From a virus: a stretch of DNA of 21,640 nt. Location: the IMG/VR virus record IMGVR_UViG_3300044636_000004, positions 1 to 21,640 of that record. One strand, given 5' to 3'. The position numbers and the translations under genes are program-made. The stretch's first letter is position 1; each line of letters begins with the position of its first letter. Under the pieces are notes generated by a model that worked only from the letters and a program-made list of their open reading frames with translations, did not search any database and was not told the DNA's origin. Below, piece by piece: positions 13,347 to 19,533 of the stretch.

Positions 13347-16300
13347 TTATTTCCTGTTCATGGCGGCAAGGCCACCTTTAGCTTTGCTTAATTCGGGGTT
13401 GGTAGTGTCATCCCCCAATCCTGCCATCGCCGCGCCTGTTATTGGAAACACAGATCTAAAATCCATGGACTGTCTTGGAAGCGCATCCGTCATAAGTAAA
13501 GACTCTCGATTAGCGCCAACTAGCGCATCAAACATGGGCGACCCGGCCTGCTGAAGCATTCTTTCCAGATTAGAAAGCTCTGCCATGTTTGGTTTGGATT
13601 TTGAAACATACATGGTTGCCGTAGCGTTGGCTCTTTCCAGAGAGCCTAAAAGTTGTTTAGCCACACCTGTTTGACGCAACGTCCCAACATTTATATTTGT
13701 CAATGGAATAAACGCAACAGGTTGCCTCGCGGCATTAAACAATACCAACCCTGTTTCGTCGCCAGCAATTTTTTGAGCTATATCTTTTGCTTGTGTTGGG
13801 CTTTCTACTTTTGTTGAATCCAATAAATTTGCTTTGCGAAAGGTTCGCTCCACCATATCTATTGATTTAGTTCGCGCCGCAGCAGGAATGTTGTTGTTAG
13901 CAATATCAATTGTTCCATCTGGCGAATATGCGGCAAACTTAGACTTTCCAATTGCAAGAATACCGCGCATTTCAATTCCCGTTCCCCGCGATATATTGTT
14001 AATTGCATTTGCTAGGTTTCTGTCCGCCGACGACAGTTCCGGGTTGCCGCTTGGATGATTATGGCTTATCCAAAAACTTTTTGCTTTAGGCGTGTTGGCG
14101 ATTGCACCCAACAAGGAAAACGGCTCCGCTGATGTTTGCGAAGCCAGTCCAATCGTATGCCTGATAATTTGTATGGGCCGGTCGTTTTCGTCAAGCACAA
14201 CCGCAACCAATTGTTCTTGTGGTGATTTGCGAAGACCCGCCGTAATATGTGCCGCCTGTTCGGGCGTAGATGCCTGATCAAATCCAACGGCTACATTTCT
14301 GGCTTGTTGAAAAGCGGTGCTAGTGGCAAATCTTCCGTCTGGAAGTTTGACAAATTGTACGGATTCAACAGCTCCGGCCCCGTCGTCAATGGCTGGCTCA
14401 GATTTTGCAGATGTAATACGTTGTTGACCCGGTAAGGCACCGGATCTGGCGTTAACTGCAAGCGGTTCTTCAACGGCCAATGGTTCATTTAGTTGCCTTG
14501 GAACATCAATGTTTCTTGATATGTTCGCAGGAACATTTGTCCTTGCAACGGCTTTTCCAATATCCATGGCGGTTTTGCCGCCGCCAAATAACTCTCCAAT
14601 TGTTTCTGAAATGTTTGCAGACTGTCGCCTAATTTCATCTGTTTCACTTACAGGAACCAGTGGGATGTTCAAGCCTTGGTCAAAAAACCTTCTTACGTCT
14701 TCAGTTGTTGGTAACACTGTTCGTTTCTTCATGCCTCGCAGAAACGCATCAATCCGGCTTTCTTCAGGATCTGGAGAGATTGCCGAACCAACACCTCTCG
14801 TTACTGAAATAACATCGCCCGGAAGTCCAATAGTTCCCTGAACCGCCCCCTTGCCAAGACCCGCGGGGATGTCTAGTAACATTTTACCGAAGGTTGACAA
14901 TGGAATGTTTTTGGCATCTTGTGGCAAGGTCATCATTGTTGCCGCTTCTTGCAAATCCGGTGACTCACCGTCTGCCATCTGCTTTTCATTAGCTAACTTC
15001 AGGGCTTGCATGAATGCCTTGTCTTCTGGCATCCCTTGTTCGATCAGTCTGGCTTTGATGGTGTCGGTGTTAGATACCAACCCACCTTCCTTGAACATCG
15101 GTTGGCCCTTAGATAGAGCCTCTTTCATCTTGGGAGTAATGTCGATGTAACGGACAGGCTCATCAAAGCCAGCATATAACTTATCTCTAGCTTTATCGGC
15201 ATCTCCATAACTGTCAAATCTTTTCGATACGTCTACAGTTGCTGCATCGCTTCTGCTTGGGTCTTTGCTTCTTAGCCAATACTGCTTACCGTCACTAGCA
15301 ATCTCTATTGGAAACGGCCATTCTCCCTTTGTTTGTAAAGCAGTATCCCCAACCTTAGCATCGAACTTCTTGCCGTACTTGTTTAGGAAGCCGGGGTAGA
15401 TCTCGTCGTAATACTTCTTCATCCCCTCGCCGCCGATAGATAGATTGTCTGCTGACAACCGCATCCAATCAGGACGCATCGGCCTATCCGCTGCAAGACT
15501 TTCGCCAGCATTGGCGCGAATCTTTTCGGCGATCTCTTTGCCTACCTTTTTTTGCAAGTCTTTGTATGACAGATCATCCAACTCAACCACAGGCTTGCCA
15601 TTCTTCACCCCTACTACTTCGTATCGAATCTCGCCAGCATCAGTTTTGAACGGCTCATACTCAATAGCGTCTACATTCGCCCTCAAAGCGTCTGTATAGC
15701 GATCTATCTGCCTTTTGCCTGTGGTGATACCAACCCTGTCGTATCCCTTGTCTACAGCCTCTTGTAAGGCTCTCTTTAATACTAGTTGATACCAGTCTTC
15801 TTTGAATGGAGCGTCGGGGACGCCAAGAGAACTTGAACCTGTCGCGTTAGCAATAGCCCCTTCTCTTGTTGGGCTTGCAAAACCAACTTGTGTCTTTGAT
15901 CGGTCAAACACCATGAACTCGGTGCCGATTTGCGGACCACCGCGATACCCGTATTTGGGCACCTCAACTACTTCCCATCCCGCTGGAAGTTGACCCGACT
16001 TGCTTGCGTAACCTTTCTCCCTCCCCGCCTGATGCCAGTCTGATTGAATCTCCTCAATCAATAGCATCTTCTTTCCGTCTGCATCTACTCGGTCATTGAC
16101 TCGCAGATGAGCTAGGACGTTAGGTTGATCCCAGTGGGAGGAGCGGTAATCTGTTCTATTCTCAAACAATCTACGAGACTCTTGAACAACCTCATCTTTT
16201 TCCGCTTCCGACAAAAACCGCATTTGCTTACCAAACAACTTTTGCGCTATTTGATCTGTGGTCATGCTATCCGAAGGCAACGTCAGCAGAATCTCTCGGT

Positions 16301-17378
16301 AGTTCTCGCCACCGGGAAGGGTCCATTGGGAGTGTCTGGTTGGCTCGCCTTTAGGAAGGTCATACCTTTGGTTCTCTAACTTTTCCAACATTTCTTTCAT
16401 GTTGACAATCTTGTCGTACTTTAATTGCCAATCAAATGGCAACTCATTCAACATCTTGTCATCACGAATTTCTCTAAACAGATAGCCACTGTTTTGGAAA
16501 TCTTCTTGAGCCGAAATGATCTTGTTTTGCAACTCGTCTATTTGATTAGTTAAACCCTCATAAGATCGAGTTCTGTGGCCTAACTGAACTTCACCTAGCT
16601 GTACCTTGTTTTCCGCCAAGTAGTCCTGAATCTCTTTCTTGCTGACATTCTGCTTTCCAGCAAGGAAATCTTTCAGTCCGGTGTATTCCAACTCCTCATC
16701 CTTAACACCGGCTTTTCGTAGATCACTCAGGAAGCCTTCGCCCCTTCCTTGACCTCTTTGAAGATTCAACGCCGCTTCTTCAGCAGGGCTGTACAGTTTC
16801 ATCTCATTACGGGGCGCTTCGACCCTTTGGGGGACCATGAAACTCTGCGTCCCTTGCGTCATCCCCTGAAGGATCTCAGCAGGTAACCCACCCTTTTCCA
16901 TCGTGCTGTAGACCTGCTTCTCGACAGCCTTCTCTAGACGGCCTCCAGCGGCCTGTAAAGCCCTCTGAGCCATGGCATTAACGTCTGCTGCTTTAGCACC
17001 CGCCTGAGCGACAGCAGGACCCGCTAGGATGTTTGCAGGGGAGGTGAAGGCTGTAGGCTGCATCGGGAAGGCTTCTGCAACCTTTCCTAAAGCCTCGGCA
17101 GCAACATCGAAGTATCTTTCACCCGCAGGTGTTTGCGGAGGACGGAATCTCTTGGCTTGGAACTCAGGCCCCATCTTCCCCATGAACTGGGCGGGAACAC
17201 CGTGTACTAACGCACCAAAAAGAGAAAGACCTGCATCCGCAAGTCCTTTGGCTTTATCTAGCTTCGTCTCGTCCGGACGGAAGATTGATCGAACATCACC
17301 ACCAAGAATAGGTTCTTCAACCGGAGGGATGTCTGATAAGGGTTGGGTCATCGGCAGACCCCCGAGGATTCGTTCCAT
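13347..17378 (-). CDS. Large polyvalent protein with RadC-type JAB/MPN+ metalloprotease-like domain
   Basis: A protein of 1343 residues. Residues about 234-262 (FLAGKQNVSKKEIQDYLAEN), 353-366 (PGGENYREILLTLP), 413-426 (SSHWDQPNVLAHLR), 443-457 (EIQSDWHQAGREKGY) and about 551-562 (TTGKRQIDRYTD) form a block I know from phage and plasmid polyvalent proteins. Its activity is not established. Residues about 1030-1160 form a RadC-like JAB domain: H1106-N-H1108-PSG, S1116 and D1119 complete the metal-binding HxHPSGxxxxSxxD motif, and an upstream Glu lies in SPQEQLVAVVLDEN. FKEGGL (about 755-762) and the C-terminal KAKGGLAAMNRK echo motifs of other proteins here. AAGGAGG at 17383-17389 is a strong ribosome binding site. 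Polyvalent proteins are thought to be injected with the DNA to counter host defences; a virion role here is inference. Confidence 0.75.
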   Translation of the reverse strand: MERILGGLPMTQPLSDIPPVEEPILGGDVRSIFRPDETKLDKAKGLADAGLSLFGALVHGVPAQFMGKMGPEFQAKRFRPPQTPAGERYFDVAAEALGKVAEAFPMQPTAFTSPANILAGPAVAQAGAKAADVNAMAQRALQAAGGRLEKAVEKQVYSTMEKGGLPAEILQGMTQGTQSFMVPQRVEAPRNEMKLYSPAEEAALNLQRGQGRGEGFLSDLRKAGVKDEELEYTGLKDFLAGKQNVSKKEIQDYLAENKVQLGEVQLGHRTRSYEGLTNQIDELQNKIISAQEDFQNSGYLFREIRDDKMLNELPFDWQLKYDKIVNMKEMLEKLENQRYDLPKGEPTRHSQWTLPGGENYREILLTLPSDSMTTDQIAQKLFGKQMRFLSEAEKDEVVQESRRLFENRTDYRSSHWDQPNVLAHLRVNDRVDADGKKMLLIEEIQSDWHQAGREKGYASKSGQLPAGWEVVEVPKYGYRGGPQIGTEFMVFDRSKTQVGFASPTREGAIANATGSSSLGVPDAPFKEDWYQLVLKRALQEAVDKGYDRVGITTGKRQIDRYTDALRANVDAIEYEPFKTDAGEIRYEVVGVKNGKPVVELDDLSYKDLQKKVGKEIAEKIRANAGESLAADRPMRPDWMRLSADNLSIGGEGMKKYYDEIYPGFLNKYGKKFDAKVGDTALQTKGEWPFPIEIASDGKQYWLRSKDPSRSDAATVDVSKRFDSYGDADKARDKLYAGFDEPVRYIDITPKMKEALSKGQPMFKEGGLVSNTDTIKARLIEQGMPEDKAFMQALKLANEKQMADGESPDLQEAATMMTLPQDAKNIPLSTFGKMLLDIPAGLGKGAVQGTIGLPGDVISVTRGVGSAISPDPEESRIDAFLRGMKKRTVLPTTEDVRRFFDQGLNIPLVPVSETDEIRRQSANISETIGELFGGGKTAMDIGKAVARTNVPANISRNIDVPRQLNEPLAVEEPLAVNARSGALPGQQRITSAKSEPAIDDGAGAVESVQFVKLPDGRFATSTAFQQARNVAVGFDQASTPEQAAHITAGLRKSPQEQLVAVVLDENDRPIQIIRHTIGLASQTSAEPFSLLGAIANTPKAKSFWISHNHPSGNPELSSADRNLANAINNISRGTGIEMRGILAIGKSKFAAYSPDGTIDIANNNIPAAARTKSIDMVERTFRKANLLDSTKVESPTQAKDIAQKIAGDETGLVLFNAARQPVAFIPLTNINVGTLRQTGVAKQLLGSLERANATATMYVSKSKPNMAELSNLERMLQQAGSPMFDALVGANRESLLMTDALPRQSMDFRSVFPITGAAMAGLGDDTTNPELSKAKGGLAAMNRK

Positions 17379-17414: not shown

Positions 17415-17612
17415 TCAGCCCCGCCTAGCAAGTTCACTGACACACAGTTTGCAGATTTTCCTCCCCGGATTCACCGTTGGGAGAACTTGCTTCGCACCCC
17501 GCCTCATTTTCTTCTGACTCAGCATCTTGCAGTAGGTATCCTTACCTCTCCAAAGATGAGCTGATGTAGTTAGATTATCGGGGTTGTAGTAAAAGGAGTA
17601 AGTTTTATTCAT
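17415..17612 (-). CDS. Small Cys/His protein, probable zinc-binding
   Basis: A 65-residue protein of unknown function. The likely metal ligands are H19, C28, C54 and C57 (SAHLWRGKDTYCKM at 17-30 and KICKLCVSEL at 52-61), a layout common in small phage zinc proteins. The rest is basic (KKMRRGAKQ). It is the first gene after the folded non-coding block and ends 36 nt before the polyvalent gene. The ATG at 17610-17612 has no clear Shine-Dalgarno sequence, and a 7-bp hairpin lies 8 nt before it, so its translation may depend on the leader fold. Could be a small regulator; not shown. Confidence 0.6.
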   Translation of the reverse strand: MNKTYSFYYNPDNLTTSAHLWRGKDTYCKMLSQKKMRRGAKQVLPTVNPGRKICKLCVSELARRG

Positions 17613-17619
17613 TGATATA

Positions 17620-17641
17620 GGTTCTATTATGTTTTAGAACC
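17620..17641 (-). promoter_or_regulatory. Inverted repeat just before the small Cys/His gene
   Basis: GGTTCTA (17620-17626) and TAGAACC (17635-17641) are perfect 7-bp complements with an 8-nt spacer. The hairpin ends 7 nt before the ATG of the next gene, exactly where a ribosome would bind, and no T-run follows. It could hide the start site or act as a protein-binding operator. Confidence 0.45.
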
Positions 17642-17793
17642 CCTTGGTGGTGAGTTTTGAGCATAGCGAAGCCTAACCGTAACTAAACAGTTTTCGCTCC
17701 GCTAGCGCGAGTTCCCCTTGTATGGAGCCGTTCGTCGCGTTCGCGTCGTCCAGACTTTTCAGTACACCACCGCACTCTAGACCTAGCCCATGC

Positions 17794-17875
17794 TTCCCGC
17801 TTTGGCTTGCTCGTGTAACGGGATAGTTTCTACAGACCCACCGACGTACCGCAATCTGTAGAGGCACACCAAAGC
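17794..17875 (-). ncRNA. Second folded RNA domain downstream of the T-run, possible pseudoknot
   Basis: On the minus strand GCTTTGG and CCAAAGC (17869-17875 and 17799-17805) form a 7-bp stem that encloses a perfect 7-bp hairpin (CTACAGA/TCTGTAG, 17830-17836 and 17855-17861). CGGGA (17795-17799) can also pair with TCCCG (17819-17823) inside the loop, which would give a pseudoknot competing at one base. It follows immediately on the T-run of the preceding domain, so read-through transcripts would carry it in the leader of the next gene. The remaining stretch 17642-17793 has no credible gene and only short palindromes such as CGCTAGCG at 17700-17707. Confidence 0.4.
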
Positions 17876-18022
17876 AAAAAACCCATTGGGTGACAGGCTT
17901 TAGGCTTGGTTTGCCGCTACATGGTTGGTCCACACCCCTTCCATGTGCTTTGACGAAGCCCGGCCCCCAATGGGTTCGGTATTCGCTGTGTGGCGCTGCT
18001 ATCGGATTACCAGCCCGACAGT
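17876..18022 (-). ncRNA. Candidate structured small RNA between terL and the polyvalent operon
   Basis: A promoter upstream points into this stretch. AACCCATTGGG (17966-17976 in transcript sense) and CCCAATGGGTT (17880-17890) form a perfect 11-bp stem that closes a domain of about 95 nt and runs straight into TTTTTT (17876-17881). Inside, GGGCTT (17956-17961) pairs with AAGCCT (17902-17907 or 17895-17900), and ACATGG (17941-17946) with CCATGT (17919-17924), giving nested helices. The 86-codon frame covering it is Cys-rich, lacks a ribosome binding site and is not convincing. No match to tmRNA, 6S, RNase P or tRNA signatures was seen. It may be a free RNA of about 145 nt or an attenuating leader. 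Confidence 0.5.
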
Positions 18023-18029
18023 GATTAGA

Positions 18030-18057
18030 ATTTTATCCACCTGATTATCTCTGTCAA
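18030..18057 (-). promoter_or_regulatory. Sigma-70-type promoter driving the non-coding block and genes after it
   Basis: In minus-strand sense TTGACA (18052-18057, perfect -35 consensus) is followed by 16 bp and TAAAAT (18030-18035, 5 of 6 to the -10 consensus). The start of the transcript is expected near 18022. It lies about 50 bp after the large terminase stop. It is the best promoter I see in the window and implies transcription by the host RNA polymerase at this point. Confidence 0.65.
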
Positions 18058-18105: not shown

Positions 18106-19533
18106 TCAGATTGCATATGGATTCTCTCGGGTCCTTCCAGAGTCAACATAATCCTCTTCGTCCCAATCATCTCTGGGGGGAGGGTCGACTTCCAACCAGC
18201 CTGCGTCTCTTAGCCACCTTAAACCCTGTACCCCAGCGTCTACTAGGTCATCGAATGTTGACTCAGGGAACGAACATATCTGCGAGATGAATGGCTCTGC
18301 CCAGTCTTTCACAAATCCTTTCCTTCTATCGCTTTCAGGAACCCATACGCGCCCTCTGGCGATCACATGGGACACGATGTTCAGCCGCTGCATCTTGTCG
18401 GCTCTGCCGGGGTTGTACGAGGCTACAGGCAGGTGCGCCCTCATCAGATCCTGAATTAGACTGATCCCCGCAGACTTATCCTCAATCAAGATCGCATCTA
18501 CGCGCTTCTTGTCCCGCCCCTCTCCGTAAATAACCTCATAGTCATCAATGACTCTCTGCCTGAGATCAGGGTACTGCATCCGATCCTGCCAACAATCAAT
18601 GATCATCACCGACATTGGCCCATCCTGCGGTTTAAATACCCCATAAGTCACGCACGCCGTGTAGTCGTTCTGAGTCTTCTCCGACGTAGCACAATCGTAG
18701 CTTTGTAGGATGTACTCAAACTTCGGGAACTCTTTCTTTGAGGGCCAGAGCTTGAACCACTCCCTCTTTACGATTCCCCCATCCTCTGGATCGATGATCT
18801 CTGCGTGGATCTCTTGTCTACCTAACTTCGTACCTTCGTACTGGAGAATCTGCCTCTGAAAGTTCTCAGACAGGTTCTTGATGTTGGCATAGGTACTAGC
18901 TGTTGTAACCCGAACATCATCCCGATTCAGCAGATCCAGAATCAGGTCCTTAGGTCTCGGGGTTGTCGTACAGATCAGTCGGGTCGGCATATCAGGAAGT
19001 TTTAGCCGCAGACCAAACTGCATCTGATCCCACGCCTCTTGTATATAGTCCCAAGCCGCTAACTCATCAGCCCATCCACCGTTGAACTGTGGCCCCCTGA
19101 ATCGCTCGGGTTCACTAGCAGGAATCCCTTTGATGAGACTCCCGTTCGTCAGCTTTAGTTCGTGAAGAGCCTTGTTGTAGTCGGCTACCAGTATCTGAGG
19201 AATAACAGACAGCAGCCCTGAATCGCCTTCAAAGCAAGTTGCACGAACGTCAGACGACGTAGGAGCCGCTACCAACCACCGAGTCTTAGGATAGGTCCAC
19301 GCCCACCATCCGATCTGTTCTGCGGCTGTTCTGGTCTTTCCAGCACCCCTTCCTGCTAGCATCAGCCAGATCGACCAATCACCCGGAGGAAGGATTTGGT
19401 GTTTGTGAGCAGCAGACAACCAATTAGCCCTCCATGCGAAGGCTGCTTGATCCTCTTGAGACAGTAGTTCGAACTTCCTTCGTGTCTCCGGGTCTTTCAA
19501 TAGATCAAGGATGTCATCCACGTTGAAACGCAC
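18106..19533 (-). CDS. terL: Terminase large subunit (packaging ATPase and nuclease)
   Basis: A 475-residue protein that pumps DNA into the prohead and cuts it. ATPase part: GRGAGKT at 61-67 (Walker A), GGWADE at 152-157 (Walker B with D156 and catalytic E157), ICTTTP at 187-192 (coupling motif). Nuclease part of RNase H fold: D280 in SYDCATSEK, E351/D352 in AILIEDKSAG and the acidic D428-D429 with D432 in TFDDLVDAG, the three metal-binding sites expected. It begins with GTG at 19531-19533 directly behind an in-frame TGA, and overlaps the nuclease-like gene by 20 nt. No good Shine-Dalgarno is present, so coupling is likely. Length and motifs are complete. Confidence 0.95.
   Translation of the reverse strand: MRFNVDDILDLLKDPETRRKFELLSQEDQAAFAWRANWLSAAHKHQILPPGDWSIWLMLAGRGAGKTRTAAEQIGWWAWTYPKTRWLVAAPTSSDVRATCFEGDSGLLSVIPQILVADYNKALHELKLTNGSLIKGIPASEPERFRGPQFNGGWADELAAWDYIQEAWDQMQFGLRLKLPDMPTRLICTTTPRPKDLILDLLNRDDVRVTTASTYANIKNLSENFQRQILQYEGTKLGRQEIHAEIIDPEDGGIVKREWFKLWPSKKEFPKFEYILQSYDCATSEKTQNDYTACVTYGVFKPQDGPMSVMIIDCWQDRMQYPDLRQRVIDDYEVIYGEGRDKKRVDAILIEDKSAGISLIQDLMRAHLPVASYNPGRADKMQRLNIVSHVIARGRVWVPESDRRKGFVKDWAEPFISQICSFPESTFDDLVDAGVQGLRWLRDAGWLEVDPPPRDDWDEEDYVDSGRTRENPYAI

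Follow-up and report, generated by a model that had tools for sequence, protein, structure and literature searches.

A candidate modular RNA gene in freshwater phages: a terminator-like tethered hairpin followed by an exchangeable 3' domain

We propose that positions 18023-17640, on the minus strand of the 21.6-kb phage record analysed here (the window, in its full length), form one noncoding RNA gene in which an attenuator-like 5' domain (A) gates an exchangeable 3' RNA cargo, a reading to which we give a probability of about 0.45. The sequences present a predicted promoter, a tethered hairpin flush with a U-tract, a pseudoknotted second domain (B) with a repeated segment X, and an exchange of A and B among loci. 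This RNA is common to hundreds of freshwater phage sequences.

The minus-strand gene order is Sf6-type terS, a 213-aa ORF, a PDDEXK protein, terL, the RNA, a 65-aa ORF, a 1343-aa protein and an 840-aa protein. The terL gene (18106-19533, minus; Terminase_6N/6C match) lies immediately upstream of the RNA, and the 65-aa ORF (17415-17612, minus), which has no Pfam match, lies downstream of it; short ORFs resembling the latter also come after the RNA in some relatives. The 1343-aa 'polyvalent' protein (13347-17378, minus) contains a RadC/JAB domain at residues 1038-1150, and the 840-aa protein beyond it, for which the Pfam search gave no match, is probably the portal. A tRNA/tmRNA search across the window found none. 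The sequence-only reading of this DNA had been unable to match the RNA to a known family, and the Rfam search of the window agreed, as it gave no match, GOLLD and ROOL included. The model of the Betaproteobacteria-1 RNA (RF02932, threshold 49.4 bits) left the window unmatched even at E 10. snoRNA matches obtained under permissive Rfam thresholds were attributed to chance, and a resemblance to RNase P or to a group I intron, seen by eye, was unsupported by Rfam.

The promoter is of the sigma70 type (TTGACA-16-TAAAAT, 18030-18057, minus) and matches the consensus at 11 of 12 positions, with TTGACA at 18057-18052, a 16-nt spacer, TAAAAT at 18035-18030 and a predicted start at about 18023. It is the single promoter-like match between 16500 and 19500, and since 2.2 matches per shuffle are expected by chance in this region, it is weak taken alone. 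The -10 box is visible at the same place in the 55-row alignment of domain A (A2), and this conserved position in relatives supports the promoter that had been postulated from the window only. In type III relatives (see below) the -10 hexamer is mostly TATAAT, and -35-like matches exceed those in shuffles, with a pattern that also caught some unrelated sites.

Domain A (17876-18023, minus; about 147 nt, type I fold) was defined by folding, alignment and covariation, and the covariance model R1, whose training set contains the window sequence (L002), matches 17876-18042(-) at 144.8 bits. It begins with the hairpin H1 (CUGUCGG/CCGAUAG, 17999-18021, minus), in which 6/6 pairs show changes on both sides. 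The 5' tether CCACAC (17988-17993, minus) then pairs with the apical loop GUGUGG (17930-17935, minus); this helix, which rests on covariation and on locus-specific complementarity, has double changes in 4/4 pairs and 70% of cells paired. In this loop-loop helix, a small hairpin, H2, contributes its loop and the long hairpin H3 (17880-17977, minus) its apical loop. H3 consists of an 11-bp closing stem, AACCCAUUGGG/CCCAAUGGGUU (17977-17967 with 17890-17880), an inner stem (17947-17940 with 17924-17917) and covarying helices 4-10. The closing stem runs straight into a terminator-like U6 tract (17876-17881, minus), two U of which take part in the stem pairing, and a U-tract is present throughout alignment A2. 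Domain A has the sequence pattern of an intrinsic terminator, i.e. a GC-rich stem followed directly by at least 5 U. The deep fold, the 11-bp stem and the six T residues described previously are all present: the MFE of 17860-18023(-) is -69.1, as compared with -55.2 +/- 4.2 for shuffled sequences (z -3.3), and 0/200 shuffles were as stable.

Domain B (17640-17864, minus) starts directly after domain A and is constituted of P1, P2, a P3/P4 pseudoknot, P6, GGCUCC-X1 and CACC-X2. The sequence-only reading was right that the 5' half is structured, and missed both this second domain (17864-17640) and the tether pairing. P3 and P4 form an H-type pseudoknot, which was included in the covariation model, and P5, a pairing of CACC with GGYGG, was omitted from it because of a C-A mismatch in 15/52 sequences. 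As the folding energy of B alone is unremarkable (z -0.9), the support for this domain is covariation. The earlier reading had proposed a covariation check, and base pairs covary in both domains: the score was 0.545 against 0.188 shuffled for type I A (55 distinct sequences) and 0.408 against 0.132 shuffled for B (52 sequences; P1, P2, P3, P4, P6), values that lean favourable since the structures were derived from the same alignments as were scored and the shuffles ignore relatedness. For type I A, double changes occurred in 30/39 pairs, 88.8% of cells were paired against 68.3% shuffled, double-change cells numbered 478 against 167, and sliding the partner by 1-3 columns lowered the score to 0.11 or less. 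Even so, a mixture of pair types at a single position (CG/GC/AU/UA for one pair of P3, for example) would be difficult to obtain otherwise. The coding frame proposed for checking, an 86-aa ORF at 17673-17933, is not maintained in relatives; it was rejected as coding since the spacing of conserved anchors changes by lengths other than multiples of 3 and stops occur in most or all frames of relatives.

The most peculiar element of domain B is the hypervariable direct repeat X, here CAAGGGG, with a first copy after GGCUCC (X1, 17714-17720, minus) and a second after the final CACC (X2, 17640-17646, minus). X is 6-9 nt long and its sequence differs widely among loci, yet X1 equals X2 within a locus: the mean longest shared word is 7.40, against 4.66 with swapped pairs (swap maximum 5.34 in 200), and further columns of both segments around X covary by identity. 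In nearly all loci no third copy was found nearby. An antisense partner was also sought and rejected, since nearly every locus lacks a full-length reverse complement of X within -350..+450; two of the exceptions have it in the U-tract region. Reverse complements of X elsewhere in the loci numbered 48 against 29.5 expected and were mostly short 6-mers, and the idea that X pairs with the U-tract of the leader was discarded by eye, as changes in X were not tracked there. In many relatives, X2 overlaps the place expected for the Shine-Dalgarno sequence of the next gene, and there it is SD-like; where the start codon is far from X2, X is mostly not SD-like (both judged by eye). An identity of X1 and X2 without RNA complement would leave, among others, template-DNA pairing, a sequence-specific protein or recombination.

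When 80 terL relatives from IMG/VR were compared with the intergenic region, the matches fell into two separate stretches, domain A and 17853-17639, the latter conserved even where A differs. A pattern scan for domain B gave at least 108 loci above the first profile score cut, with 52 distinct at 93% among the matches listed, and the motif scans for two A types likewise yielded figures that cover the matches listed. There was one match per record, at varying positions, in 12 records with the B motif and in 14 with the type I motif; the search for other A types and cargo in one-copy records was made with the type I model alone, in six records. Among 401 genomes of one bacterial family searched for prophage copies, none contained the type III A motif and none matched the single B sequence used as query, and pattern matches in bacterial genome contigs were judged to be chance. 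Two B queries found no isolated phage with domain B by blastn.

Domain A proved to occur as four folds (types I-IV), each with a 5' tether complementary to its own apical region and a stem flush with a U-tract. The mean longest tether-loop complement, own versus swapped, was 6.1/4.8 for type I, 7.3/4.7 for type II, 9.5/5.7 for type III and 8.7/6.2 for type IV. For types I-III the own values lie above every swap (swapped maxima 5.1, 5.1 and 6.1), and the type IV signal is marginal (7 sequences, swapped maximum 8.0). Among the matches listed, type I A is followed by B in 14 cases, by the D family in 23 and by other domains in 29; type II by B in 43, D in 8 and others in 7; type III by B in 76, D in 26 and the E family in 9; and type IV by B in 7, with two contig ends among all A copies. 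All 111 distinct type III copies among the matches listed (111/111) have a second structured domain directly behind them, and most A copies of the remaining types also have a structured 3' domain at once behind, with a gap within about 20 nt. The description of A as a self-contained small RNA is not supported, A being almost never alone. Copies of A lacking a recognisable cargo are rare (at least L358, followed by an apparent coding sequence, and L013, followed by an ORF). Domain B occurs without the A leader in L096 and L114, and one cargo can be retained while the A domain in front of it is replaced. These combinations show that A and B are exchangeable between phages. Because cargo families vary behind A and the cargo occurs without the leader, A would serve the cargo and not the reverse.

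The alternative cargos are themselves worth describing. The D family (downstream of A in L440, L407, L012 and L013) is about 220 nt long, comprises 40 distinct sequences and has covarying stems; a first-look covariation table makes a pseudoknot likely, its top pairs lack an X-like identity signal, and there was no Rfam match. The E family (L452:2980-3500 (+) and relatives), structured-looking and about 360-400 nt long, stands behind type III A in 12 loci and has neither an isolate match nor an Rfam match. The F group of 3' domains (L365, L323, L350, L426, L364) carries GAGGAAAGUCC-like and GGUUCAAGUCC (T-loop-like) motifs, which recall RNase P and tRNA, also with no Rfam match. Further structured-looking RNA families, RF02932 among them, are held in the class of other domains, 21 of whose 36 members were judged by eye.

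L328 and L032 have 3' domains that score 101 bits against RF02932 (permissive thresholds; gathering score 49.4), and this RNA serves as 3' domain behind type I and II A in L328, L354, L032 and the complete phage MW202545. In the latter (MW202545.1, L563:7832-8289), type II A and an RF02932-like domain are overlaid by two annotated hypothetical proteins, which are probably spurious. The order of elements in RF02932-type domains resembles that of B, with two hairpins and a GGYGGCGAAG / GGUGGGCGAA core, then CUCC-X1...CACC-X2, the latter arrangement being found by eye and from exact repeats in most of 8 members. However, profiles of RF02932 and B do not find each other convincingly and there is no detectable sequence relation between them, and the Rfam model, unlike the window RNA, ends before X1 and is without the A leader. 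RF02932 was present in 2/201 genomes of one bacterial family; in one of the two it lies in a prophage-like stretch, behind genes for helicase and primase. Acidovorax phage AP1 (OM049504.1, L562:11855-12070) carries an RF02932-like RNA, missing from its annotation, in the gap between primase and the following gene, where no A of the four types was seen, and both AP1 and the prophage-like locus thus have this cargo without the A leader. The AP1 RNA also has an X1/X2 repeat, GAGCAGA. In the literature searched, no paper devoted to RF02932 was found. The family reportedly stems from a survey of 224 candidate structured RNAs, and parts of the window RNA may be listed in the supplement of another survey, which looked for such candidates among viruses and phages.

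The placement in the packaging/head (terL/portal) junction, to which attention had been drawn, turns out to be incidental. In relatives the RNA follows a Cro-like gene where a rightward operon starts, follows primase or terL, precedes terS/terL, or separates scaffold from capsid genes (neighbour genes named by eye from sequence except where annotated). The downstream gene is on the strand of the RNA in 141/154 callable cases, a figure from crude ORF calling with no baseline. A terminator after B was found in 5/72 loci against 2.5 in shuffles, i.e. B has none of its own, so that its transcript probably continues into the next gene. The downstream genes differ and are unrelated among relatives, and promoter-like sequence was seen by eye after B in L094, L117 and L122; these two observations favour an RNA gene over a gene-specific leader. 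HNH endonuclease-like genes stand directly behind the RNA in L161, L188 and L086, a possible clue to the mobility of the element.

We hypothesize that A acts, close to the promoter, as a conditional terminator. RNA polymerase would normally stop at the U-tract and leave a stable RNA of about 147 nt, whereas readthrough of A would allow the 3' domain, the functional cargo, to be made. Pairing of the tether with the apical loop would make A more stable or serve as its switch. The cargo would work as an RNA, probably in trans; it is B in the window, and D, E, F or the Betaproteobacteria-1 RNA at other loci. The covariation of A and B, and the convergence of four A folds on tether-loop complementarity and a flush U-tract, speak for this mechanism. 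Against it, a transcript that enters the next gene without a B terminator also fits a cis leader, many relatives have X2 where the next gene would place its Shine-Dalgarno sequence, and L358 and L013 have A without cargo. Such a leader, belonging to a lytic operon and comparable to lambda PR' with its early terminator, would switch downstream genes on through readthrough of A and perhaps through an action of B on RNA polymerase. The constitutive-looking promoter combined with a terminator, the co-directional downstream genes and the lack of a terminator after B agree with it, but phage genes are mostly co-directional anyway, the downstream genes are unrelated and the element moves around the genome, and we hold this explanation to be unlikely.

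A somewhat better, still doubtful, alternative is a single continuous trans-acting ornate RNA of about 385 nt, similar to GOLLD and ROOL, in which the U-tract would be a flexible linker, A would serve at the 5' end for stability or assembly, and B would complete the fold. Both domains are elaborate, they are almost always within about 20 nt of each other, and tRNA genes stand just upstream in L048, L069 and L380; however, a linker would hardly explain why 5-6 U adjoin a GC-rich stem without a gap in A folds that are unrelated, and 3' domains also exist without A. The promoter, the compact fold and the U-tract would suit A acting alone as a separate small RNA that carries its own terminator, as was thought earlier, which is very improbable given the second structured domain almost always directly behind A and the exchange of A domains while the cargo stays. 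Equally little credit is due to a packaging or recombination site that would work at the DNA level through its hairpins and the direct repeat X: the X1/X2 repeat and the proximity of terminase genes in some phages recall such a site, but G-U tolerant covariation, pseudoknots and the promoter indicate RNA, and many copies are far from terminase.

A more speculative reading, which we consider rather unlikely, would be a 'polymorphic RNA effector' locus, in which a constant promoter-leader-terminator unit would precede exchangeable ornate RNA cargos, as in polymorphic toxins with swapped C-terminal domains. The identity of X1 and X2 in B and RF02932-type cargos would then mark a mechanism that needs identity and not complementarity, for example pairing of the X1 loop with the template DNA strand at X2. 

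The X1/X2 repeat is a sharp and testable mechanistic clue. Also, the orphan family RF02932 gains sequence context, and type I A and B are added as two unlisted RNA domains with good support, together with candidates for several more. Phage noncoding RNAs can thus be assembled from swappable leaders and cargos. Such RNA escapes protein-based phage annotation and mostly Rfam, as exemplified by MW202545 with its hypothetical proteins annotated over the RNA.

Several known phage RNAs can be compared with the window RNA. An antisense immunity like that of P4 was considered, and no seqB-like partner was seen. The phi29 pRNA is likewise a structured phage RNA near packaging genes, a position shared by some relatives, but this location is not general for the family and there was no Rfam match. 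The lambda late leader (6S RNA) has a promoter, a structured leader of about 150-200 nt and the intrinsic terminator tR', which is subject to Q antitermination. The window RNA likewise has, in a phage operon, a promoter followed by a structured leader that ends in a terminator-like element, whereas its conserved tether pairing and its second ornate domain are without lambda counterpart and it is not tied to late genes. tRNA genes stand just upstream of the RNA at L048:5590-5663, L069:2914-2987 and L380:3478-3549, as in GOLLD and ROOL. These two are large ornate phage noncoding RNAs of unknown function, often near tRNA genes (PMC12286853); unlike them, the window RNA is smaller and both its halves are swapped as modules.
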